This document shows positions 24,798 to 51,705 of a stretch of DNA of 64,000 nucleotides, piece by piece (positions within the stretch are counted from its first letter, which is position 1; the number at the start of each line of letters is the position of its first letter). Below the pieces are notes generated by a model. That model saw only the letters and a list, made by a program, of their open reading frames with translations. It had not been told where the DNA came from and made no database searches. The position numbers and the translations under genes were made by a program. Source of the DNA: Candidatus Rokuibacteriota bacterium (GTDB lineage Bacteria; Methylomirabilota; Methylomirabilia; Rokubacteriales; CSP1-6); the NCBI GenBank assembly GCA_030647435.1, contig JAUSJX010000060.1:1-64000 (forward strand). The letters run 5' to 3'.

Positions 24798-25743
24798 GAC
24801 CCATCCCGCCTTGGCATTCCTTCTTATTATCATCTCATTTTGTCTGGTAGCAAAGGAGCGTCAATCGTACCTACTTTGCCGAGAGTCAACCACTGTGATT
24901 GCCCGGGAGCAGCGAATGCAACCATCGTGTCGCAATCGAGGCGTGAAGGAGATAGTGCAGAATGCGCGAAGCGTGGCGTCGTCGTGCCGAGCGTAGGAAA
25001 CATTAAGGCCCCCCCTGAACTTCGCCCGGTTTCGTGGACACCCCGGATCGCACGAAAGTACGGGAGGAATCGTGTCACCCGCCCCGGCGGCTGCGCCCAC
25101 GGCGCCTCTGCCCCAGCCACCGCCAGCCCCAGCGCCACGGCTATGCCCGGCGCCATAGCGTATCGGACCCACTGTCGCGCTATGCCTTCAGTTGTTAGAA
25201 GACATTTCAAAACCGTTCCTCGGGTGTTCTGACGATGCCGAGGGCCTTGATTTTATGGGTTGCCCCGGTACCGCTGCCGAGGCCGCACGCGGTTTTCAAA
25301 TGGCTTCTAGTGAAATCACGAGCATTCCTCCTCCGACGCCCCGTTGCTTTTCGACCCTCTTCCAAAGTCTGCACCGTCGATTTGGCAAGATCATATACCC
25401 TTCCTTTGTCCGTGGGCGGTCCGCGTACTGCGTGTCTTGGTTGCGTCACACTTTTGTCGGGATTCAGCCCATCACTCCAAGCCGGAACTCCAGCGTCTCC
25501 TGCCGACCTGGTGTCGCCTACGTGTCCACGAATCAAGTGATTCTTGAACTCGCTGGCTGGATCCGCTAAGCCTCGTAACTCCAACCCTCGAGTGCAGCCA
25601 AAGCCCGGCAGTCATATGAACGCCGGGAGTCCTTGGTCGTAGACTTCAAAATCCTCCAGGACATCCGGTCGGCAAGTGCCTGTCCCTACAAGGGTCTGAT
25701 TGTGGTTAAAATCGGAGGTCTAAAGGAAATGATTGTAAATAAC
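24798..25743. other. gene-poor stretch
   Basis: I see no convincing gene. Around 25015-25046 the minus strand reads GTGTCCACGAAACCGGGCGA, similar to ends of IS3-type elements. A short minus-strand frame from 25156 (MAPGIAVALGLAVAGAEA) resembles a signal peptide but loses any sense at the IS-like end, so it may be a clipped exported-protein gene. The rest has frequent stops in all frames. Confidence 0.5.
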
Positions 25744-25804
25744 GGCTAACGACTGACGGCTCAGCGGCGCGCGCACGCGCGTCCGCTGCAACCGCTGGTT
25801 CGAC
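25744..25804 (-). other. integron attC site
   Basis: Read on the minus strand: GTCGAAC (R''-like), nine bases, CAGCGG-A-CGCGCG, TG, CGCGCG-CCGCTG, 11 bases, GTTAGCC (R'). The central stem is perfect except for one unpaired A, which is the extrahelical base IntI uses for strand choice. The orientation puts it at the 3' end of the HerA gene. Confidence 0.85.
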
Positions 25805-25915
25805 GGCTACCCAAAAATGGATCGAGAGGATGGGAAAGCTGATGCGGATCCTGCAAGACCGATACTTCGAGGCGCCGAAGCCAACGCCCAGCACCCCCAG
25901 CGGCAAGCTGGCGCT

Positions 25916-27706
25916 TCAAGCGAGCGTTCCCGCTGTGCGAGATTGCCGGCGCAGCGTTTCGACTGCTGCCACAACTGCGGCAGAGTCCGGAGCCTTTTCG
26001 CCCCACTCCTGCCAGAAGTTGCGGGTCTGGCTCAGCGGCTCGATGGTTGGGAACTTCAGCTTGATTCGGGCGGGTAGGAGGATCGCGTCGCCCAGTAACA
26101 AGGCTTCGCCGGTGTCGAGCAGCGGCAAGCCATCGAGGACACCCGCCAGGGAATCAGGCATGAGGCGACGGACGACATTCTGGTCCTGATCGTTGGTCAA
26201 GCGCAGGATAAGGAAGTTATTGCACTGGCTGAGGATGGTTCGGCTCACGTCCGAGGGGCGCTGGCTCACCACAAGAAGGGAGACGCCGTATTTTCGGCCT
26301 TCTTTAGCGATGCGCTCGAAGGAGTAAAGGGCCTGTTTCTCGACTGCGTCCGCGTCTTCACGGACCGGCAAGTACAGATGGGCTTCGTCGCATACGAAGA
26401 CGAACGGCGTCCGCTTGTCCGGCTGCATCCAGAACTGAACATCGTAAAGGAGTCGTGCGAATACGCCCGTGACAACGGGGAGCACGTCCGACGGCACTTC
26501 GGAAAAGTCCACCACCTTGATGCCGTGTTTTCCCTCGCCCGGGGCAAGCAGCTTTGCGATTTGCTTCGCGAGCCAGTGGTACTTGAGAGCAGCCTCTGGC
26601 GGCTTGAACATGAAGCCATACCGGCGGTCCTCCGCTTTGGCTTCGAGGCGGGAGATGAACCGCGTCAGTTTCCCGTTCCAATCTCCTTTGATCTCCGCTT
26701 TCGTCGTCCCAGGCTTCGTGCCCGTGTCGTCTTCTCGCAGCATTACGAGGAGATCGGTGAGCCTGTAGGGCACGGGCGAGTCCACGGTGAATGTTGCACG
26801 GACCGTCTCCTGCTTCTCGTCCTTCAGGGTCTTGTCCTTAAAGTCCCGCACATGAGTTGTAAATCGTGCTGCCTGGTTTGGCGCGTTCTGATCGCTGCGG
26901 TCCAAGATCATCGAGAGCATTTCGTCCCGGTTCAGGAGCCAGTACGGTAGGAAGAGTGCGTTTTCCGGTGGCTTGGCGAGATCACCCGGACCTGCGATCT
27001 TGAACCCGGCGGCAATAGGGATTGGCATTGTGCCGTCCTCACGAGCGGGCGGGTTCGCGAGCGAGGCGTACTCGCCGTGCATGTCGAACACGATGATGTT
27101 CGCGTGCTTGCGGGCGTGTGCACGTTCCAGGATCAACGACACCGCGCAACTCTTGCCCGAGCCGGTACTGCCAAGGATCGCCGCGTGCCTCTGAAAGAAG
27201 CGATCGCCGTTCGCGATCGCGGCGGCTGAGCGGTCGATGGCGAAGTAGCCGAGCTCGAGCCGCTGCGTCTCATCCAGGTCCTTGCCCAGTAACCCCATGA
27301 AACGCTGAAGGTTGCCGCCCTCGATGAGAAAACAATCGCGATCGATTTGTGGGAACGAATCAGCGCCCCGCTTGAACCGGTTGCGGACAGTTCCCTCGAT
27401 GGTGCGGTAGGTGCCGAGTAGGACGGCCCGGAGCGAATCGTCCGGCACGACCTCCACCGCGAGCGTCGTGGGTGCCATCGGATCAGGCGACGCTGTCTGC
27501 TCACGGAGCTGCCGGGTGACACGCTCCGTCATGCCAATCAGGAACTCCTGAGCGATCGTCCCCTGAATTGCGACAAGGCTCCCGACGGCAGCGCGTGGCA
27601 AGAGTGCGGCGTTTTCCACCGCGATGAGTACGCGGCTTGTGTCCACGGAGGCGACCTTGCCGAGCTTGCTCGGCGCGTCAAACGTCAGAATGGGTGCATC
27701 GCTCAT
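25916..27706 (-). CDS. HerA-family ATPase of a SIR2-HerA defence pair
   Basis: 596 residues from ATG 27706 (GGAG site). An N-terminal HAS-barrel-like region (about 1-120) precedes the FtsK/HerA motor: Walker A GSTGSGKS (179-186), VFDMHGEY, and Walker B FVFVCDEAH (D440 E441), then SQRPSDVSRTILSQCNNFLILRLTN with the sensor and arginine-finger region. HerA hexamers translocate DNA. Here the start overlaps the SIR2 stop as ATGA, the arrangement of the SIR2-HerA (Nezha) antiphage system, in which the two proteins form one large complex that depletes NAD+ and can cut DNA. An attC site follows 112 bases after the stop. Confidence 0.92.
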   Translation of the reverse strand: MSDAPILTFDAPSKLGKVASVDTSRVLIAVENAALLPRAAVGSLVAIQGTIAQEFLIGMTERVTRQLREQTASPDPMAPTTLAVEVVPDDSLRAVLLGTYRTIEGTVRNRFKRGADSFPQIDRDCFLIEGGNLQRFMGLLGKDLDETQRLELGYFAIDRSAAAIANGDRFFQRHAAILGSTGSGKSCAVSLILERAHARKHANIIVFDMHGEYASLANPPAREDGTMPIPIAAGFKIAGPGDLAKPPENALFLPYWLLNRDEMLSMILDRSDQNAPNQAARFTTHVRDFKDKTLKDEKQETVRATFTVDSPVPYRLTDLLVMLREDDTGTKPGTTKAEIKGDWNGKLTRFISRLEAKAEDRRYGFMFKPPEAALKYHWLAKQIAKLLAPGEGKHGIKVVDFSEVPSDVLPVVTGVFARLLYDVQFWMQPDKRTPFVFVCDEAHLYLPVREDADAVEKQALYSFERIAKEGRKYGVSLLVVSQRPSDVSRTILSQCNNFLILRLTNDQDQNVVRRLMPDSLAGVLDGLPLLDTGEALLLGDAILLPARIKLKFPTIEPLSQTRNFWQEWGEKAPDSAAVVAAVETLRRQSRTAGTLA

Positions 27707-28731
27707 GTCAGTAGCTCCTTTGCCAGAACGCCCAGATCCCACAAGTCGTGCCCCTGATGCTCGAACCGGAGTCCCTTTGTCACCATCGCGACTCCCGCCC
27801 ATGCCGGCGGTTTCGAGAGGCAAACGCAGCGCGGCGATTCCTCCGCCAGCTTCGCGACCTTCGAGCTCGCCGATTGATTCAAGATCAGCGTGGGCGTGCC
27901 GTCCTGAATCCGTTTTACGAGATGGGTTTGCAGGTGATCGTCGTTGAAGCCGTACCCCACGACCAGTAGACGCCCGGCCCGCTTGATGTAGTCGTTGGCC
28001 AAATCGCGATGCTTGTCAAAGGGCGAGTTGTAGCCAGCCCGGTACTTGTTGACGCCGGGAGTGATCATGAGACGTTCCGCGTCCAGATCCAGACTGCAAC
28101 GACGCGCGTCGTTGCCGGATTGGTACCAGTCAAAGCTCCCATGCGGCTTCAGGACGATCGCACGCGGGAAGTGGTCGAGGACGGTGGTCTTGGCGCGTGT
28201 TGTGATGCCCCGGCATGATCCCATGCAACTTCGGGCATGGTCGAACGCCCCCGCGTAGTGCCCGACGGCTGTGGTGTCTACATGGAAGCCCGCCATCTCG
28301 CATGCCACCTCGATGAGCCGATCATAGTTGGGTGTCAGGATCGGCAGCCCATTCGTCGGCTTCAACACCTTGGCCAGGAATGTCGTCAGGCGAAGGGAGC
28401 GATCGCCTCGGAGCACCGCACTCATGACTTCGCGTTCCTTCGGCATCAGGAGTTCGCACGTCCCTTGTGCGATCCAGACCTCAAGCGTGTCGGATGGCGG
28501 GTGCTTAAGCAGCGCCGCTTCCAATCCTTCCTCGGCAACCAGCACGGCCTTGATCTGATTCCACAGTGTCGCGTCGGTTCCCGTCAGCACGCTTCCGGCG
28601 TTGCTGAGATGCGTTGCAAGCGCGGGCATTCCCGGGATCCCCTCAGCGGCGGACAGCCCGGACCCGATCACCAACGCGAGACCGTCGGTGAAGTGCTCCT
28701 GCACGAATGTGACCAGTGCGCCGTAGTCCAT
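27703..28731 (-). CDS. SIR2-like NADase of a SIR2-HerA defence pair
   Basis: 342 residues from ATG 28731; a TTG at 28743 is an alternative, and neither has a strong ribosome site. SIR2 motifs: VIGSGLS (22-27), T-P-N-Y-D-R-L-I-E (catalytic Asn 135, Asp 137), KPHGSFDW (catalytic His 197) and VGYGFNDDHL (258-267). This bacterial SIR2 class hydrolyses NAD+ on phage infection rather than deacetylating proteins. It is translationally coupled to HerA. The gene lies between the attC-like region 28797-28926 and the attC at 25744, so the pair reads as one two-gene cassette. Confidence 0.92.
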   Translation of the reverse strand: MDYGALVTFVQEHFTDGLALVIGSGLSAAEGIPGMPALATHLSNAGSVLTGTDATLWNQIKAVLVAEEGLEAALLKHPPSDTLEVWIAQGTCELLMPKEREVMSAVLRGDRSLRLTTFLAKVLKPTNGLPILTPNYDRLIEVACEMAGFHVDTTAVGHYAGAFDHARSCMGSCRGITTRAKTTVLDHFPRAIVLKPHGSFDWYQSGNDARRCSLDLDAERLMITPGVNKYRAGYNSPFDKHRDLANDYIKRAGRLLVVGYGFNDDHLQTHLVKRIQDGTPTLILNQSASSKVAKLAEESPRCVCLSKPPAWAGVAMVTKGLRFEHQGHDLWDLGVLAKELLT

Positions 28732-28796
28732 CTTCGTACTCAATGTCGCGACCGTCTCAAGAGCAGCATCCTGCCAACTCGCGCCTCACAAGTCTC

Positions 28797-28926
28797 GACG
28801 AAGCCAACCAGGCGTAGAGCGACGTTCCTTGCGGTTGTTCTGTCCCTCGCACGCTTGGGTTCATCGGGGCGACAGCAGAAAACGAAGCATCACTCTTGAA
28901 GCGTTCGGTGCAAGGCGTGGTTAGGC
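28797..28926 (-). other. possible long attC site
   Basis: On the minus strand GCCTAAC (28926-28920) begins directly after the stop codon of the nuclease gene, as cassette attC sites do, and GGTTGGC about 125 bases later could be the partner core. I cannot draw a convincing inner stem, so this is weaker than the two short sites nearby. Confidence 0.35.
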
Positions 28927-29451
28927 TCATCTGTTACGGCCTTTGGGCGGTTGGAGTTGATAGATTCTGCAACCATATCTTGTCTTCCTGAGGTCTGCGT
29001 ATACTGCCTTGCCACGTTCCTCGAAACGACCGGTGGTTAGTTCTAGAACCTGAACGTGCGACTTGCGCCCGAAGACACATAGCAGAGCCATCGAACCTGG
29101 CTTGGCAGCAAGGAAGGCCCGAAGCTTGTCAACATCACGCTTTATGTCTGGCTTCTTTGATTTGACCCACTTAACTTCAATCGCAAGACGGAGCGAATGT
29201 TTTACGGCATAGAAGTCGAGGCGCTTCTTGTCACCTTGGTCCGGTTGCTCAATCCCTGGACACTTGTATTCGCACTTCACGGTGTAGCCTCGAGCCATCA
29301 GGATGCGGAGTATCGGCTCGTAAAGGGCGTATTCGCTGAACGCTTGATTCATCTCGCATGCCGCGAGGTAGCTTACGTAGGCGCTGAGCCCGCGCTTGAC
29401 TCGGAAGAGGACATTCGTTGGCTCGGAGTTCTTGCCCGTGGTCGTTGTCAT
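28927..29451 (-). CDS. PD-(D/E)xK nuclease-like protein (integron cassette)
   Basis: 174 residues from ATG 29451. A helix with YEPILRIL (Glu 46), then RLDFYAV (Asp 79) and LAIEVKWVKS (Glu 92, Lys 94) gives the E...D...E-x-K signature of the restriction-nuclease fold. The C-terminal part contains VQVLELTTGRFEERG. It is a small single-domain protein, probably a DNase or nicking enzyme. It is bounded by the attC at 29461 on its 5' side and a GCCTAAC core right after its stop, so it is an independent cassette on the minus strand. It is a plausible defence or toxin cargo. Confidence 0.72.
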   Translation of the reverse strand: MTTTTGKNSEPTNVLFRVKRGLSAYVSYLAACEMNQAFSEYALYEPILRILMARGYTVKCEYKCPGIEQPDQGDKKRLDFYAVKHSLRLAIEVKWVKSKKPDIKRDVDKLRAFLAAKPGSMALLCVFGRKSHVQVLELTTGRFEERGKAVYADLRKTRYGCRIYQLQPPKGRNR

Positions 29452-29460
29452 GTTCGCGAG

Positions 29461-29517
29461 GCCTAATGTTGTCGCTCAGCGGCCGGCGCGCCGGTCCGCT
29501 GAATCGGCTGGTTCGGC
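29461..29517 (-). other. integron attC site
   Basis: Minus strand: GCCGAAC (R''), nine bases, CAGCGG-A-CCGGCG, CGCCGG-CCGCTG, nine bases, ATTAGGC (R'). The inner stem is perfect apart from one extrahelical A. It begins one base after the stop codon of the membrane-protein gene. Layout and spacing match 25744-25804 and 51163-51222. Confidence 0.88.
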
Positions 29518-29518
29518 A

Positions 29519-30550
29519 CTACGGAGTCCCCGTGATGTTCCACGCAAGCCATTTGAACGCCTGTTCCACCATTATCGCTCCGGAGACCGCCGACACGACA
29601 CTCAGACTCACGCAGCTCCAGAAGAATTCCCATCCCACACGCAGGCGGCTAATGTGCCGTCGCATGACAAGCGCGGCGTTCATCCACCAGATGCCCCAAA
29701 AGGCAACTACAAGGAAGGCGAGAAGGAGTAAGTACGCGGGCCCGGTTCTCCAACTGTCCATGGTCCAGCAGACCGGCGTGCCTACACCTATGCCAACGCT
29801 GTACCAGCGGCGCACCAATCTTCGATGGCTAAGCTCAGGCTCAGTCGTCGTGGGGCTAGAACGAAAGTCGAAGATCATCGCATGGTATTGATAGCCAACA
29901 ACCGTTCCGAGAACAAAGGTGGCTGACGCCATCAGCAAGGCGGCCACGAGCGCTCGTGCCGTTCTCGCCACCAGTTCCGGGACGTTCTTTCTTATCGTTG
30001 TGACGTTTGGACCGTCCGCTACCAACGAGGGCTGCGCGGAGGACTTCGTCTGTATCGTCGCTTGCTTGTCGGCGTTTCTGTCGACCCCAATGGTGGGCGG
30101 TGTCTTTGTCTCCCTGGTCGATAGCGTCTCCATTGTGCTTCTAGACGCAGCACCGTGTTCAAGAGAGCGCAGGCCACCGTAAAAAACCGTGACGCTGCCG
30201 GTAAGGAATGCGGCAAGCGAAAGCCACATGAAAAGGATGCTCCAATGGCAGACACACGGTTCTCGCAGCTTCTTCCCGAAGATTTCACAAGGAGGTGGCC
30301 GATATTGGTGTTGTTCATAAAGCAGGGAGCAAATGCGTCGGAGTCGGTTGTGGACGACGGCAGCAATCAAGCCTGCCTGAAAGGTGAGCAAGGCGTAAAG
30401 AATCCCACGCGCAAGCCACTCGTAGCGCGGCTTATCGAGCACGGTCGGGAGAAAGGCCAATAGAGCAACGGTCGCACCACCGTTGATCAGAAGCAGCCCT
30501 TTGACATTCTCTGTGTCGATTTGGGCGCGTATCTCTAATCCCTTCGTCAT
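29519..30550 (-). CDS. multi-pass membrane protein (integron cassette)
   Basis: 343 residues, ATG 30550. The N-terminus (TENVKGLLLINGGATVALLAFLPTVL) is a pattern I associate with small uncharacterised cassette and phage proteins. About six membrane segments come in two groups (residues ~20-150 and ~195-330), separated by a hydrophilic loop rich in Thr/Ser. No transporter signature. The attC at 29461 follows its stop by one base, so it is a cassette gene, the one nearest the integrase remnant. Membrane proteins of this kind are frequent effectors in cassette-borne defence systems, but that is only an analogy. Confidence 0.7.
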   Translation of the reverse strand: MTKGLEIRAQIDTENVKGLLLINGGATVALLAFLPTVLDKPRYEWLARGILYALLTFQAGLIAAVVHNRLRRICSLLYEQHQYRPPPCEIFGKKLREPCVCHWSILFMWLSLAAFLTGSVTVFYGGLRSLEHGAASRSTMETLSTRETKTPPTIGVDRNADKQATIQTKSSAQPSLVADGPNVTTIRKNVPELVARTARALVAALLMASATFVLGTVVGYQYHAMIFDFRSSPTTTEPELSHRRLVRRWYSVGIGVGTPVCWTMDSWRTGPAYLLLLAFLVVAFWGIWWMNAALVMRRHISRLRVGWEFFWSCVSLSVVSAVSGAIMVEQAFKWLAWNITGTP

Positions 30551-30779
30551 GTCAGCACCGAACTACAATTCGGCCACTGGATAGGCTGACCTGCATAATA
30601 GGGCAACCCCTGCCAGCCCCTGCCGCGTCTACCGGTCGAGGGACTACCGCGTCGAACAGCGCCCGGCGCTTTCGTTGCCGCCCTTTGCCCGTGTCCGGAG
30701 CGACCCTCGCCGCTCCGGATAGGCTGCAGAGCGCTACAGCCTATCCCGCTGCATTTACCCCGCAAGGCCGCCAGGCGGC
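30551..30779 (-). other. spacer between integrase remnant and first cassette
   Basis: Contains GGATAGGCTG with CAGCCTATCC as a 10-bp inverted repeat (about 30715-30744) beside CCGGAGCG...CGCTCCGG, and another GGATAGGCTG near 30580. If an attI site survives it should be here, but I cannot identify one with confidence. Confidence 0.4.
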
Positions 30780-31066
30780 TCATGGGCCGACCATCCGGTC
30801 TGCCGTGCTCCGGATGCTGGCGGGCCTGCGGTTCCGGACGTGCGTGTAGGTCATGGTGTGCCGACGTCGCGGTGCCCCAGCAGCTCTTGGAGCGTGCGGA
30901 TGTCGTGTCCGTCCTCGAGGGGATGCTTCACGAACGAGTGGCAGAGGGTGTGGGGCTGGCGCGCTTGGGGAAGACCCCCCTGCCAGACCGCCGCGTGCCT
31001 GAGTGCACGCTGCAGGACGGTCTCGTGCAGGTGGTGGCGGGGACGCTGCCCGGTGACCCAAATCAA
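30780..31066 (-). pseudogene. integron integrase (intI), degenerate C-terminal part
   Basis: The minus-strand frame to 30851 reads RHHLHETVLQRALRHAAV...HTLCHSFVKHPLEDGHDIRTLQELLGHRDVG, and a second frame continues TMTYTHVRNRRP...ADRMVGP to the stop at 30780. This is the C-terminal catalytic region of an integron-type tyrosine recombinase: the H-x2-R box is damaged (Arg replaced by Cys in HTLCHSF), the box III HRDVG and the Tyr of YTHV survive, and a frameshift separates them. Upstream parts are unrecognisable. It points in the same direction as the cassettes, unlike class 1 integrons. Confidence 0.78.
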
Positions 31067-31803
31067 GGTGGACCCCGGGGCGGCTGGACTCGCCCTCGAC
31101 TGCGTATACCGCCGATCGCGGACGGGCCATGCCGGCGCCCTCCTTTAGGTGTGGACGCGGGCCGACTATAGCTTGCGGCGGACGGAGTGGCAAGGAGCGG
31201 CACCAGCTGTATGCGAGCCGGGATGCGGGGCTCGGGTGGGGGGCTGGTGAAGCCGCTCCGCATGGCCGGACAAAGCTCTCGCGAGGACCGCCGGTCCCAC
31301 CCGTTGGGGCGACGAAGGCTCTCCGGCGAACTGAGGCTATGCTGTTACCTTGAAGCGGAAGTCGAATGACCTGTTTGCCGGCAAGTGGTTGCGGGCCCCT
31401 GATTTGAATCAGCGAGGGGCAAAGAATGTGGCACCCCATTCTAGGGGACTGAAAGTCGCGTTTGAATCCCCGCTCGAGGATCCTTAGGGGCTTGGGCACG
31501 TGATTCTGGCGTTCCGAAAACCTCGGAGCCTGGGCCGCGTCGCCGCAGTGGAGTTGTGTGGACTTGGGGAAGACGGAAGGGCCGTGCAAGAACCACTTGA
31601 TTGATGGACGAGCCGAATCCCGACTGGAGTTTCGGTCGAAGGTGTTGCCAACGGCTTGGTTGGTAACACCGGCTGGTACCCAACAGGGTTCTACTTGACG
31701 TTTCACCTGCCTCCGTCGTAGCGTGCCAACGATGCCATATGGGCGCCACCGGTCGACAACTTCTGGCCCCTGACCTGCCGGACGGCTCTCTCACGGAAAA
31801 GCT
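31067..31803. other. gene-free stretch left of the NTase locus
   Basis: No gene recognised. Around 31386-31480 there are tRNA-like scraps (a T-arm-like TTTGAATCCCCGC and the palindrome CTGATTTGAATCAG) next to a GGTTGCGGGCCCC motif related to the hairpin of the 60-bp repeats. The sequence CCCGTTGGGGC near 31300 matches 11 bases of the tRNA-Glu 3' end. These look like debris of past integrations. Confidence 0.45.
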
Positions 31804-32562
31804 ATGACACCGGATGAGTACCTGCAGGGTATCCTAGATCGTGAGGCGGTCAACACCGGTCCACTATCCCCGGTCCGGGGCGTCCAGGCGGTGATTGCCC
31901 CGATCATCCGCGAGTGGGCCGGCGCCATGCTCCTCAGTGTTCAGCCGAGCGGTTCCTTCATGAAGGGCACCGCGAACAAGAGCGGGACTGATATTGATCT
32001 TTTTATCTCCATTTCGGAACAGACCCCCGACACGCTGAAGCAGATCTATGGAAAGCTATTTAACAGAATGACGGAGAGGGGGTACAAGCCCACGCGCCAG
32101 AATGTTTCAATCAATATCCGGGTAAATGGCTACTCCGTGGACCTTGTTCCCGGCAAGCGCCAGGATACCTACAGCGCCGATCACAGCCTGTACCGACGCA
32201 AGGCCGACACTTGGACTAAGACGAACGTGCTGACGCACATCAAGCATGTCACCGACGGCGGCCGACAGAAGGAAAGCCGCATCATTAAACTGTGGCGCGC
32301 CAAGAACAACCTCGACTTCCCATCCTTCTATCTGGAGTTGACAGTCATCAACGCCCTGGCGTTGCAGCACGGGACTCTCTCCGGCAATGTATTGAGGGTT
32401 TTTCAATACCTCAGTGACGCCTTCCAGAATGCGCGCATCGTGGACCCTGCCAACACCAACAACATCATTTCCGACGATCTTGCCGTCGCAGAGAAAACCA
32501 AAATCAAGGCAGCAGCAGCGCAGGCCCTGAAGGCAGCCAACTGGAGCCAGATCGTCATATGA
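31804..32562 (+). CDS. CD-NTase-like nucleotidyltransferase
   Basis: 252 residues. The polymerase-beta-type active site is complete: PSGSFMKGT (Gly50-Ser51), then GTDIDLF (Asp63, Asp65) and the third acid in YSVDLVPGKR (Asp113). The GSF-x-KGT...D-x-D spacing and the V-D-L-V-P strand match CBASS-type cyclic-oligonucleotide synthases and OAS-like enzymes. It should make a nucleotide second messenger or modify RNA ends. No SAVED, Cap2/Cap3 or transmembrane effector typical of described CBASS types is adjacent. Its stop overlaps the next gene as ATGA, so the two proteins are very likely made together. Confidence 0.85.
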   Translation: MTPDEYLQGILDREAVNTGPLSPVRGVQAVIAPIIREWAGAMLLSVQPSGSFMKGTANKSGTDIDLFISISEQTPDTLKQIYGKLFNRMTERGYKPTRQNVSINIRVNGYSVDLVPGKRQDTYSADHSLYRRKADTWTKTNVLTHIKHVTDGGRQKESRIIKLWRAKNNLDFPSFYLELTVINALALQHGTLSGNVLRVFQYLSDAFQNARIVDPANTNNIISDDLAVAEKTKIKAAAAQALKAANWSQIVI

Positions 32563-33275
32563 CCTGGTTTCTAGCCCAACTTCTTGCTGGACTCCACGAC
32601 GATATCGAGCGGCGCCTGGCAATGGCTCGCGAGGCCTTCGGCCACGCGGGCACGAAGGGCGATGCCAGCGAGAGCGTCTGGATTCAGCTCTTTCAGACCT
32701 ACCTGCCCAAACGCTATCAGACGGCGAGCGCCCACGTCGTCGACAGCAAAGGCACGTTCAGCGACCAGATCGACGTCGTGCTGTTCGACCGGCAATACTC
32801 GCCTTTCATCTTCCATTTCGAAGGCCAGATCATCGTTCCCGCGGAGAGCGTCTACGCCGTCTTCGAAGCCAAGCAGACAGTCAACGCCGCCCAGATCACC
32901 TATGCCCAGCAAAAGGTTGCCAGCGTCCGGCGTCTTCAACGGACGAGCCTTCCCATACCGTACGCCGGCGGCACATACGACCCAAAACCTCTCTCACCCC
33001 TCATCGGCGGCCTTCTCACGTTTGAAAGCGACTGGAATCCCGCTCTTGGCCAGCCGCTCGCCGACGCGCTCGCGGGCGGCGATCCGGCCGGTCGGCTCGA
33101 CGTGGGCTGTGTTGCCGCCCATGGCACGTTTGGCTGCGATGCTCAGGGTTGCTACAGCTTCGTCCCTCACGGCAAGGCCGCGACCGCGTTCCTCTTCGAC
33201 CTTATCGCCCGGCTTCAGAGCACCGCCACCGTCCCGATGATAGACATTCGCGCCTACGCGCAATGGTTGCCCTGA
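32559..33275 (+). CDS. DUF6602-like nuclease partner
   Basis: 238 residues, coupled to the NTase by ATGA. The N-terminal part has the pattern G-T-K-G-D-A-S-E...F...LPKRY...A-x-V-V-D-S-x-G-x-x-S-D-Q-I-D-V-V, which I recognise as DUF6602. Asp72 (QIDVVLFD) and E-A-K (Glu103, Lys105 in VYAVFEAKQ) make a PD-(D/E)xK active site. The C-terminal half is unique. I infer a nuclease that may be controlled by the NTase product; no ligand-binding domain is obvious. Confidence 0.75.
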   Translation: MTWFLAQLLAGLHDDIERRLAMAREAFGHAGTKGDASESVWIQLFQTYLPKRYQTASAHVVDSKGTFSDQIDVVLFDRQYSPFIFHFEGQIIVPAESVYAVFEAKQTVNAAQITYAQQKVASVRRLQRTSLPIPYAGGTYDPKPLSPLIGGLLTFESDWNPALGQPLADALAGGDPAGRLDVGCVAAHGTFGCDAQGCYSFVPHGKAATAFLFDLIARLQSTATVPMIDIRAYAQWLP

Positions 33276-33345
33276 ACCTCAATTCTTCCCGGGCGCGCGG
33301 CCACACGCGACCGTTAGACTGACACCGGGAGCGCCAGGAGTTAGC

Positions 33346-34800
33346 ATGTCTCTGCGGGCTCAAGAACCATGGGGTCGCGCCTTCGCGGTTCTCCCGTTCC
33401 TTAAGACCAGCACACCGGTCCGCCTCGGGAGTTTCACGTTTAGATCAACCGACGATACGACTGATCTCAGCGCGGAGGATTCCGCCCATCTTGCTGAGAT
33501 CACCCGCATGCTCTTTTTGAAGGATGACCTCCGAATCCGATCCGCCTCCTACACACTCTTGCCGGCACTCGATCTTGATTGGGGCGACCAATCCATCAAA
33601 CAGTTGGAGCACATCCAAGCGATCGTCGCTTATTGCTACATTGCCCCGCACCACATTTCCGGCGATCCGTTCCTGCACTTCGAGCACTCGAGCCTCGTTA
33701 TCTTCAGCCCTCAACCAGTATCCATTTACCTCGTCCGCCCAGAGCATCATGTGGAGCAAGTCTCCACGGGCCCGGCACTCACGCCAGACTCTTCGGGCCA
33801 CGTGCCAGGCTATCGGGGGCTGTACAATTTCCAACACCACTTTTGGGTCGCTGCCGGATCACGCGTGTATCCACCGGTGCCACACCTCAGCCTGAACATC
33901 AGCCAGAATCTAAGCTTCGACTGGGCTCAATCCTTAGCCGAAGCGCCCCACTTTCATCTCCTCCCAGAGCTGCTTACCCAGCCACTGAGTACGACCTCGG
34001 ATCGCGTTCTTACGGCCATATCCTGGTACAATCGGGCTAACGCTCTCGCGAGTGACCACGCTACAGCGATCGTAACCCTTGCTGTCGCCTTTGAAGCACT
34101 CCTGGGTCTGCCCAAGGAAGCCAAGACGGACCGCTTCACCGATTCCATTTCACTTCTGCTCGGGCGCATCTCGAGACTCGATCTGTGGGCACAGCAGTTC
34201 TACAATGCCCGTTCGGACATTCTTCATGAAGGACGCACAAAGCTCTTACGGTTTATGCCAATCAAGACACAGGACGCCACAAATGCGCCACTCTACCACT
34301 CCCTTTTAGGGTACGGCCGGCAGATCTTCCAACTTTGCGTGGGAACCTTATTGTTTGGCGCACATCTCGGAGTGCGCGCCGGTCTCCCTGACAAGCTCGT
34401 GACGAACCAGGAGCGCTTCCAACAAATCTGTGCCACGCTTGATGACGTGACCTTGACTATAGCTGACAAGTTCGCTGGTATCGCGGACGCCGTTGACCTT
34501 GCACATCATTACCAATTCGTACCAGAAGCCGGACTCCGCGTCGAAACGATGATCGGAGCTGTGCAACGGACCGCCCGAGCGCTTCTATCATGCTCTGAGC
34601 CCCTTGAGCCAGAGATGAAGGAGTCTCTTGAGAAGCTCGCCGTGACGCCAAAGTCTCTCGATTGGTACGAGGCTCTCGACGCCCTCCGAGCCCTGAACGA
34701 AGTAACCGCTCGGATAACACAGGCCCCACGCGGACCGAAAGCCATAACACTGCGACTGACCAGTCTAGTCTGGCGGTACACGTTTATGCACTACTATTGA
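33346..34800 (+). CDS. large HEPN-domain protein
   Basis: 484 residues. The N-terminal ~215 residues are beta-rich (an ApeA-like N-terminal domain is possible). Residues ~238-330 are helical: AIVTLAVAFEALLGLPKEAKTDRFTDSISLLL followed by YNARSDILHEG, the R-x4-H catalytic signature of HEPN RNases (Arg289, His294), as in Apea-like families. The C-terminal ~120 residues are helical. It begins 70 bases after the DUF6602-like gene on the same strand, so it may be a third component. The IS630 element is inserted exactly at its stop codon and adds only one Tyr, so the gene is not disrupted. Confidence 0.75.
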   Translation: MSLRAQEPWGRAFAVLPFLKTSTPVRLGSFTFRSTDDTTDLSAEDSAHLAEITRMLFLKDDLRIRSASYTLLPALDLDWGDQSIKQLEHIQAIVAYCYIAPHHISGDPFLHFEHSSLVIFSPQPVSIYLVRPEHHVEQVSTGPALTPDSSGHVPGYRGLYNFQHHFWVAAGSRVYPPVPHLSLNISQNLSFDWAQSLAEAPHFHLLPELLTQPLSTTSDRVLTAISWYNRANALASDHATAIVTLAVAFEALLGLPKEAKTDRFTDSISLLLGRISRLDLWAQQFYNARSDILHEGRTKLLRFMPIKTQDATNAPLYHSLLGYGRQIFQLCVGTLLFGAHLGVRAGLPDKLVTNQERFQQICATLDDVTLTIADKFAGIADAVDLAHHYQFVPEAGLRVETMIGAVQRTARALLSCSEPLEPEMKESLEKLAVTPKSLDWYEALDALRALNEVTARITQAPRGPKAITLRLTSLVWRYTFMHYY

Positions 34801-48973: not shown

Positions 48974-50125
48974 TCAGGGCCCCACAGGCAGGGCGCTGAG
49001 GGTGGACGACTCGCCGGCCCGCTGACCAAGCGAGGCCAGCCCGCCGAGCGCGGAGTCTCCGGCCAGGAGCAGGCGGGAGAATCGCAGTGCGCCCCCGCAG
49101 TGACGGCAGCGCAGGGCCGCCGGGGGCTCGCTCGCGGCCTCGGGGGCTGCCAGCGCAAACCCGCTGGCGATTTCGATACGAGCTTTGACGTCCTCGAGGG
49201 GCACCGAGGAGCTGGGCGAGAGGAACCCGTAGTAGCGCACCTTCATGAACCCGCGCGGGAGCACATGCTGGAGGAACCGGCGCAGGAACTCCATGATCGG
49301 GAGGGTCATGGTGCGCACCCGGTTGCTCTGCGGCTTTTGATACCGGAACCGCACGTGGTCTTCATCGACGCTCAGGATGCGGCGCTCCGAGATCGCCACT
49401 TTGAACACGTAGGGGGCGAGGTACTGCAGCGCCCTGCTGCCGTCGCCCGCCGGCTGGCAGTGGACGTTCCACTCCGTCGACCAGACCTCCCCCGGAATCT
49501 CCCCAAGCAGGCCGTGCGTGTCGATCCGGTCGCGAAACTTGGCCCGAACGATCCGCGACAATGCCCGCACCGGGAGATAGAACCCGGCCCGGGCCGGATG
49601 CCAGCGCCCGTCCTCGTGGCTCAACGCGCCGCCCACGACGACATAGTGAATGTGGGGGTGATACTGCACGGTGCGCCCCCAGGTGTGCAAAACTCCGAAG
49701 AACCCCGCCACATCCCCGCCGATGTGCCGGGGGTCGACGACCAGCGCCTTGATCGCCCCCGACGAGGCTTCGAACAGCGCCCCGTAGCCGATCTTCTGAT
49801 GCCGACGCAGGAAGGCGCGCAGGGGCTCGGGCACGGTGAAGGTGAGCAGGAAGTGCTCGCCGGGCAGCTGGCGCGCGCGTTGCCGCTCCAGCCATTCCTG
49901 CCCCTTCCCCTGCTGGCAGCACGGACAGTGCCGGTTGCCGCAGGAGCGATGGACCACGTGCCGCTGCCCGCACCCGTCGCACACATACAGGGCCGACCCG
50001 GCGGCCTCGGTATGGCAGTCGGCGATCGCTGCGATGACTTTCTTGTGGGCCTTGGGTATGGCCGACCCGAACCGGTCGAGGTAGGCTGGCCCATGCGTCC
50101 GAAAGAGCTCTTGGAGAAGACCCAT
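48974..50125 (-). CDS. IS91-family transposase (HUH type)
   Basis: 383 residues from ATG 50125. The N-terminus has the zinc-binding region of IS91 transposases (CDGCGQRHVVHRSCGNRHCPCC), then the HUH motif YHPHIHYVVVGG and the region ALQYLAPYVFKVAIS with the catalytic Tyr. The C-terminal CRHCGGALRF is a second Cys knuckle. These enzymes move DNA by rolling-circle transposition and can carry adjacent genes. It begins two bases after the stop of the tyrosine recombinase, a pairing seen in a subgroup of IS91 elements. Confidence 0.9.
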   Translation of the reverse strand: MGLLQELFRTHGPAYLDRFGSAIPKAHKKVIAAIADCHTEAAGSALYVCDGCGQRHVVHRSCGNRHCPCCQQGKGQEWLERQRARQLPGEHFLLTFTVPEPLRAFLRRHQKIGYGALFEASSGAIKALVVDPRHIGGDVAGFFGVLHTWGRTVQYHPHIHYVVVGGALSHEDGRWHPARAGFYLPVRALSRIVRAKFRDRIDTHGLLGEIPGEVWSTEWNVHCQPAGDGSRALQYLAPYVFKVAISERRILSVDEDHVRFRYQKPQSNRVRTMTLPIMEFLRRFLQHVLPRGFMKVRYYGFLSPSSSVPLEDVKARIEIASGFALAAPEAASEPPAALRCRHCGGALRFSRLLLAGDSALGGLASLGQRAGESSTLSALPVGP

Positions 50126-50127
50126 GG

Positions 50128-51000
50128 CTACAGGCCCTCCATCACCCGGTCGATCAAGGCATAGGCGTCCTCCGTGCCCTTGTGGGTGAGGTGCAGATAC
50201 AGCATGGTGCTCTCCAGGCTGGCGTGGCCCATGTGCCGCTGGATCACGCGGGGATTGACCCCGGCCTCGAGCAGATGCGTGGCATAGCAATGCCGCAGGG
50301 TGTGCACCGACACCCCGCGCTTGGCGACCCCCGCGGCGCGCGTGGCGTGGCGGAAGGCCCCCTGCACACTGCTCTTGGCCATCGGCGTCGTGGCGGTCGC
50401 GGCCGCACGCCCGTTGCGGCCGCACGCGGGAAAGAGCAGGCGGGGATTGCGGTGGCTGCGCCAGTGCGTGCGCAGGATGAGGAGGGTCGCGTGCGGCAGC
50501 GGCACGAAGCGGTCCTTGGCGCCCTTGCCGCGATGGACGTGGATCATCAGGCGCTGGCTATCGATGTCGGAGACCTCCAGATACTGCGCTTCCTGCAGGC
50601 GCAAGCCACATGCGTAGACCGTGCTCAAGAAGGCGTGGTTATGCTTCGTCCGCACGCAGCGCAAGATCCCCCGCACCTCCTCGGGGCTCAGGATCGCCGG
50701 CAGGCGCGCCTCACTCTTGGCGCGCAGGATGTCGAAGAGGTGCCAGTTGCGCTGCAGGACGTGCACGAAGAAGAATCGAATGCCGCAGTAGCAGATGCGC
50801 ATCGTGTTCGGCGACCAGTGGTCGACGTTGCGCCGCCGCAAGAAGTAGGCTTCGAGCTCGGGCTCGGTAATCTCGTCGGGCGGCTTGCTGTAGAAGGTGC
50901 TGAGCATCCGCACGGCTCGGGTGTAGGCTTCCTGCGTGCGTTCCCCTTTGCCGTTGAGCTGCAGGGCGTTGATGGAGCGCTGGTACCAGTCGGTCATCAT
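50128..51000 (-). CDS. tyrosine recombinase associated with the IS91-type element
   Basis: 290 residues from ATG 51000 (GGAGGAG site; the codon after it is also ATG). SAM-like N-terminal domain (1-95), then the catalytic residues Arg134 (CGLRLQEA), Lys159 (GKGAKDR), His233 and Arg236 (VHTLRHCYATHLLEAG), His259 (RHMGHAS) and Tyr268 (TMLYLHL): the set is complete. It resembles integron-type and phage-type integrases, but lacks the IntI-specific insertion. It is operonic with the IS91 transposase. Confidence 0.92.
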   Translation of the reverse strand: MMTDWYQRSINALQLNGKGERTQEAYTRAVRMLSTFYSKPPDEITEPELEAYFLRRRNVDHWSPNTMRICYCGIRFFFVHVLQRNWHLFDILRAKSEARLPAILSPEEVRGILRCVRTKHNHAFLSTVYACGLRLQEAQYLEVSDIDSQRLMIHVHRGKGAKDRFVPLPHATLLILRTHWRSHRNPRLLFPACGRNGRAAATATTPMAKSSVQGAFRHATRAAGVAKRGVSVHTLRHCYATHLLEAGVNPRVIQRHMGHASLESTMLYLHLTHKGTEDAYALIDRVMEGL

Positions 51001-51162
51001 GGGTCTCTCCTCCGCGGTAAGAGTTGGGGATCTCGCCGTGCGATACACGGCGCTCCCCGAGGAGAGCAGAGGGAGGCCGGCCTGGCTAGTCCCGCGGTCG
51101 GGACACCCGGATCGACGGACAACTACTCTGGCAGAAGATGACACCTGCCGCGAAGCGGCTTA

Positions 51163-51222
51163 CTTGAACTTCAGCTTGCAGCGGACGGCGTATTCGCGCC
51201 GCCGCTGAACCTGGCGTTAGGC
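51163..51222 (+). other. integron attC site
   Basis: Plus strand: CTTGAAC (degenerate R''), nine bases, CAGCGG-A-CGGCG, loop TATTCG, CGCCG-CCGCTG, eight bases, GTTAGGC (R'). It has the same CAGCGG-A bulge and nine-base spacing as the two minus-strand sites at 25744 and 29461. The cassette that should precede it has been replaced by the IS91-type element. Confidence 0.85.
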
Positions 51223-51637: not shown

Positions 51638-51684
51638 GGTTAGACCGCGCGCGTTAGACCTCGCATTAGACCTCGCGTTAGACC
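51638..51684 (+). repeat. four TTAGACC repeats downstream of the GYD gene
   Basis: TTAGACC occurs at 51640, 51654, 51666 and 51678 within the context (G/C)G(C/T)(A/G)TTAGACC(T/G)CG. The first copy is preceded by CCGCTGGG directly after the stop codon, which resembles the right half (L' plus R') of an attC site. The later copies look like stacked R' cores. Confidence 0.7.
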
Positions 51685-51705
51685 CTCGTCCAAGGAGGAC
51701 GCGCC

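Follow-up and report, generated by a model that had tools for sequence, protein, structure and literature searches.

In the window, that is, the whole 64,000-nucleotide stretch analysed (G000:C60:1-64000, from a genome of 5.79 Mb in 176 contigs), we found what we hold with good confidence to be a short integron array, in which a SIR2-HerA gene pair was captured as cargo, served in trans, and later fused to a nuclease gene. The presence of this full-length pair in a small integron with a broken integrase suggests that large defence systems can be housed in integrons of uncultured bacteria, with the integrase coming from elsewhere in the genome. The preliminary description of this DNA had proposed at least three cassettes in one orientation, one of them a complete SIR2-HerA system of about 3 kb. 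The single orientation is borne out by the minus-strand attC sites, and the cassettes are three by origin, but the nuclease and SIR2-HerA cassettes are now fused via a truncated attC; likewise, the complete pair is indeed cargo, but a complete attC lies downstream of it only, the upstream one being halved.

The attC sites and the nuclease/SIR2 border

The attC sites were searched with a covariance model (R1) built from 13 training sites that lie elsewhere in the same genome, on the six contigs C96, C156, C64, C79, C168 and C48, and from none of the window, to keep the test non-circular. These sites were chosen by hand from pairing-rule scans, and such preselection for pairing favours the figures of the model: 91.9% of the cells are paired across 20 pairs, 12 of which vary on both sides, and the covariation score was reached by none of 500 shuffles. 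R1 took the place of two pairing-rule scans, namely a home-made one, which was too noisy (25 matches in the window versus 30 in the reversed window), and a stricter one, which recovered none of the window's sites and gave four matches in the reversed sequence.

With its filters off, R1 returned 51 matches in the window, three of which are strong. The second and third in rank are the minus-strand sites at 25744-25804 (40.0 bits, E 6.3e-8), the attC of the SIR2-HerA cassette and the last of the array, and at 29461-29517 (38.5 bits, E 1.6e-7), the attC of cassette 1; the fourth-ranked match scores 15.9 bits (E 0.096). Thus, the covariance search for which the preliminary description had called gives significant scores to both sites at the positions and on the strand it had claimed. 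On the plus strand the same two sites score 12.5 and 8.5 bits, and this minus-strand advantage of 27.5 and 30 bits fixes the direction of the array. Both complete sites possess conserved cores and a stem, including the inner stem CAGCGG and the single extrahelical A noticed earlier. The RYYYAAC/GTTRRRY-type cores are present too, but each has one position that disagrees with the textbook consensus (R'' cores GTCGAAC and GCCGAAC; R' cores GTTAGCC and ATTAGGC). The ATT replacing GTT at 29467-29465, in the R' core of the 29461-29517 site, may weaken that site. When folded as single-stranded DNA, the two sites surpass shuffled sequences by a small margin only (z −1.35 and −1.66, respectively). The membrane-protein stop codon (29521-29519) is followed by one base and then by the attC, as claimed, while the HerA stop codon (25918-25916) is correctly placed upstream of its attC, at a distance of 111 bases and not 112.

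The strongest attC of the window, at 51166-51222 on the plus strand (43.0 bits), stands alone; it adjoins a tyrosine recombinase ORF (50128-51144, within 48974-51144, minus strand), near an ORF (48974-50425) that by eye looks like an IS91-type transposase. Farther on, at 51639-51686 (plus strand), a small ORF precedes a run of four tandem units, each some 12-14 bases long and containing GTTAGACC or ATTAGACC (by eye), which resemble repeated R' cores. Over the whole genome, R1 gave at least 47 matches with E no higher than 1 and at least 41 below 1e-3, training sites included; these counts are lower bounds, since scoring covered 150 of the 22,122 first-look candidates. In the host group, 35 of the 38 genomes, the own genome included, have R1 matches at E 1e-4.

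The GCCTAAC core reported directly after the nuclease stop codon is present (28926) and is the head of a genuine attC, but it belongs to no complete site. On a profile of attC 5' halves, the 25 nt at 28902-28926 (minus strand) score 20.1; the three complete sites reach 20.8, 20.6 and 20.1, and the next-best position of the window 14.3. Under a first-order Markov null, 100 simulated windows yielded two positions scoring at least 20, and no position in 1.36 Mb from other genomes scored at least 19. Since the 3'-half profile found no 3' half after 28902-28926, and R1 gave no match at the nuclease/SIR2 border at E up to 10 in the window, 28902-28926 is not a complete attC. The nuclease and SIR2-HerA are thus fused into one 3.7-kb unit, and the unit excisable today would comprise nuclease, SIR2 and HerA (29466-25750, 3717 bases).

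The leader of SIR2 (28771-28845, minus strand) is partly shared with the relative loci L026, L029, L030 and L035. Because BLAST similarity to L026 extends up to 28845 (it has a shorter reach in L030, L029 and L035), the missing attC half was probably lost somewhere in 28846-28901. L027, L038 and L039 resemble the window only from 28766-28775 on, close to a GTTGGCA; we take this as a later change, though this GTTGGCA could be read as a cassette border. A complete attC running from the GCCTAAC at 28926 to this GTTGGCA (28778-28772) was rejected, as it is matched by neither R1 nor the 3'-half profile, and as the sequence upstream of that GTT is common to L026, L029, L030 and L035; the similarity start in L027, L038 and L039 nevertheless speaks for such a border.

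The integron platform and the source of the integrase

Overlooked in the first reading, an integron platform of 839 bp with a broken integrase occupies 30561-31399 (minus strand). Two copies of it, 92% identical, occur in the same genome (C168:240-1078 and C168:18962-19800), so that this genome harbours three platform copies with different first cassettes, and a diverged (80-87%), interrupted copy occurs in G003, a genome of the same genus. The integrase remnant (30857-31054, minus strand; TIGR02249, 71 bits; PF00589, 31.3 bits) covers positions 229-293 of 315, after which its frame is broken; it reads HTLCHSF at the place of HxLRHSF, which we take to be the active-site motif of the integrase. 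Given this partial and broken integrase in cis, the locus is an integron remnant, or an attC cluster lacking an integrase, rather than a complete integron.

At the downstream end of the platform, 11 places from six genomes break off in the same way, their sequences being alike up to a GTT (30563-30561 in the window) and different thereafter save for a few core bases (12 rows were compared, one place appearing twice, and in three rows the BLAST end was shifted by two bases to the GTT). We read this shared break as the attI crossover, which would lie ten bases ahead of the ATG of the membrane-protein gene and place attI beside the first cassette. The upstream end of the platform (31344-31399) consists of 56 nt that other genomes of the group contain on their own.

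In the stretches that were fetched, the own genome has nine loci resembling the platform over at least 279 bases (C156, C79, C64, C134, C96, C48, C168 twice, and the window), and a tenth, on C152, does so over 59 bases. At all nine loci the nearest downstream R1 site is on the strand of the integrase. A full-length integrase is found only at C156 (472 bits, in an open frame of 385 codons), while C79 and C64 retain large parts of it (284 and 234 bits, respectively); within the host group, 31 of 60 genomes, counting the own one, have integron-integrase matches. Since dead platform copies carry different first cassettes, loading of the cassettes in trans is likely. Going further, we tentatively propose, while leaning against it, that the platform is a non-autonomous integron, i.e., an integrase-less attI module that multiplies, spreads between species and is loaded in trans by an intact integrase, thereby building dispersed mini-arrays for cassettes of at least 3 kb. 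If true, such cassettes would be large enough to hold an entire multi-gene defence system, SIR2-HerA for instance.

The other arrays of the genome carry mixed cargo. Ten ORFs between R1 sites on C156 and C168 encode a phosphatase, a methyltransferase, a NUDIX protein, a glyoxalase, an ABC substrate-binding protein, a DUF4238 protein, an AbiU2-type HEPN protein, a hydrolase and two proteins without a family; PADLOC gave only two weak matches, one for the methyltransferase and one for the NUDIX protein. Defence genes are not the sole content of these integrons. The AbiU2-type HEPN gene of C168 (L112:4651-5343, minus strand; PF18734, E 4.8e-26) may be a further defence cassette.

Outside the array, a repeat located directly after the last attC (25517-25736, minus strand) is 89% identical to G001:C228:154-374, where no R1 attC is listed. 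As a diverged inverted copy of this repeat (63%) lies beyond the platform, at 31508-31609, the integron seems to be bracketed by inverted repeats; one of 191 random pairs scored higher than this pair. CBASS-like genes stand beside the integron on the plus strand (31804-34800), comprising a cyclase (PDLC00803, E 7.3e-94), a NucC-type effector (PDLC00745, E 3.5e-104) and a 484-aa protein with no Pfam or PADLOC match. A candidate attC 3' half between NucC and the next gene (33296-33319) was discarded, 22% of null windows scoring as high.

The cargo genes and their relatives

All cargo genes lie on the minus strand. Cassette 1 (29519-30550) encodes a 343-aa membrane protein with several hydrophobic stretches (by eye) and no family match over the cut-off. 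Cassette 2 (28927-29451) encodes a 174-aa probable PD-(D/E)XK nuclease (Pfam Hjc, E 0.018, below the cut-off), the structure of which, predicted without alignment, was uninformative (mean pLDDT 35.5). SIR2 (346 aa, 27703-28743; PADLOC PDLC04082, E 5.8e-112) and HerA (596 aa, 25916-27706; PADLOC PDLC04105, E 4.9e-226, in a PADLOC range one codon too long) span their PADLOC models nearly end to end. As noticed earlier, they are coupled through an ATGA, the SIR2 stop overlapping the HerA start at 27706-27703.

This pair has the features of SIR2-HerA (Nezha) systems, namely adjacent genes, the NADase N and H of SIR2 (N139 and H201, invariant in 9/9 aligned proteins) and the Walker motifs of HerA (GSTGSGKS and DEAH). 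Because it falls far below the cut-offs of the NCBIfam anti-phage families (25.2 of 500 bits for SIR2, NF042942; 298 of 850 bits for HerA, NF042944), it is classed by its sequence as a distant subfamily. Both genes are under purifying selection, with dN/dS values against seven relatives of 0.107-0.250 for SIR2 and 0.075-0.223 for HerA (the HerA frame of L038 being partial). By analogy with tested SIR2-HerA relatives, the pair would act in defence as an NADase.

The nuclease, the membrane protein and HerA (at E 1e-60) were each found in one of 95 genomes of the class, the window's own, and SIR2 in three of 60, the own genome and two others at 30-33% identity. With the genes confined to the own genome, these weak SIR2 matches apart, there is no conserved synteny in the class; such synteny, in the absence of attC sites, was what the preliminary description had named as speaking against cassettes. 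Ten SIR2 relatives with 75-85% protein identity occur in named genomes of several phyla, and seven viral contigs encode more distant ones (26-47%), while no relatives of the nuclease were found in viral contigs or plasmids, nor any of the membrane protein in plasmids. From 114 relatives, 78 SIR2 loci were kept. In a BLAST with 25400-31300, the only DNA that relatives had in common with the array was the pair itself and its leader or tail. Outside the window, the pair was never seen with the nuclease next to it: similarity to the relatives at the DNA level stops somewhere from 28695 to 28845, or farther into the pair. By eye, the flanks printed for twelve loci are dissimilar. Clearly, the pair is also moved by means other than cassettes.

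The same pair had been expected between attC sites in other genomes, and this expectation failed: none of the 78 loci has an R1 match at E ≤1 beside the pair; one of them, L026, carries an attC-like relic after HerA. The eight matches at E up to 5 include the best one, in L026 (24.3 bits, E 0.015), more than 4 kb from SIR2, and a chance-level one in L063, 0.75 kb upstream on the opposite strand (15.7 bits, E 2.4). R1 is fitted to this host group and can miss the sites of other hosts, so the attC negative in the relatives is a weak one. L026, from a different phylum, has both the spacer behind HerA and an attC relic in common with the window; its score is 42, where the highest of 1000 null values is 22 (22 versus 20 for the attC part by itself), and nine other relatives score 8-17. 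R1 does not recognise this relic (5.5 bits at best). Of eight genomes checked, that of L026 is the sole one in which an integrase exceeds the family cut-off (440 bits); this integrase lies on a different contig from the pair, with no convincing attC nearby (R1, 18.9 bits). As judged from these sequences, the relic and the integrase support a cassette form predating the split of the two copies.

Origin of the array and comparison with known systems

By our preferred reading, an integrase, in all likelihood the product of the full-length C156 copy acting in trans, would have recombined attC hairpins into attI at 30561, on a recipient platform whose own integrase is broken. In integrons the newest cassette is nearest attI. 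The order by position would thus be SIR2-HerA first, the probable nuclease second and the membrane protein last. Later loss of the 3' half of the attC between the nuclease and SIR2-HerA would then have caused the fusion. The overlapping SIR2 and HerA genes would probably be expressed from their own leader, and their products, by homology to tested Nezha systems, would assemble into a complex and deplete NAD+ when a phage infects.

Several of the above findings count against this reading, namely the missing complete attC upstream of SIR2, the 78 loci devoid of a significant R1 attC beside the pair, the unattained NCBIfam cut-offs, the failure of R1 to see the L026 relic and the similarity start of L027, L038 and L039 near GTTGGCA. 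The half-site lying exactly where SIR2-HerA begins would also fit entry of the pair into an existing array by illegitimate recombination or a transposon, cutting the attC of the nuclease, with the attC at 25744 left from a lost cassette; the relatives in other phyla, with their common leader upstream of SIR2 and no significant R1 attC, point the same way. We regard such an entry as rather unlikely, for the spacer and attC relic shared with L026 suggest that the attC travelled with the pair, and the search of 25744-30550 turned up no transposase gene. That all three genes now stand between two complete attC sites would suit their arrival as a single three-gene cassette, the half attC being due to chance, yet this half-site scores like the complete sites and directly follows a stop codon, against a chance expectation of about 0.02 per window, and the nuclease does not accompany the pair in relatives; we consider this arrival very improbable. 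Quite another matter is whether the array, captured long ago, is now an immobile relic, a view compatible with our preferred reading except for present activity. The integrase broken in cis, the ATT for GTT in one R' core and the truncated attC speak for it, whereas the full-length integrase frame on C156 and the different first cassettes of the dead platform copies speak against it, and we judge it a serious contender, leaning only slightly the other way.

The finding holds and can be placed among the recently described integrons that carry defence genes as attC-bounded cassettes (Darracq 2025, Getz 2025 and Kieffer 2025, as cited in section 16 of PMC12409362). The 2025 work mainly concerns Vibrio and mobile integrons (PMC12409362), and Xanthomonas integrons also carry defence genes (PMC12444791). 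Unlike the Vibrio integrons, the present array differs in host, attC type and integrase direction. The integron-borne systems reviewed in PMC12409362 are reported as size-streamlined, those with more than two genes being absent, whereas the pair described here is full-length by PADLOC, takes about 3 kb and is fused to a third gene. Our search of open-licence PMC titles and abstract openings, with the 2025 primary studies known via citing papers, offered a weak indication of novelty in that it found no report of SIR2-HerA in an integron cassette. Its presence in an array of an uncultured lineage would extend both the host range and the cargo size of defence-carrying integrons.

With the SIR2-HerA (Nezha) systems, as presented in PMC11559045, the pair shares adjacent genes, the active-site N and H and the Walker motifs; it differs from the NCBIfam anti-phage families as a putative distant subfamily of predicted function. 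The fusion resembles those of class 1 integrons, where, according to PMC4670013, the first attC was partly lost and the pair was excised as one unit; those cassettes carry resistance genes, while the present fusion is deduced from sequence. In Treponema, the integrase reads toward attI (PMC3607928), and the integrase and cassettes run in one direction as in our array, where, unlike in Treponema, there are several platforms per genome, most with a broken integrase. What is unusual here is the combination of a large cargo with dead platform copies, apparently served in trans and carrying different cassettes, which makes trans loading testable.
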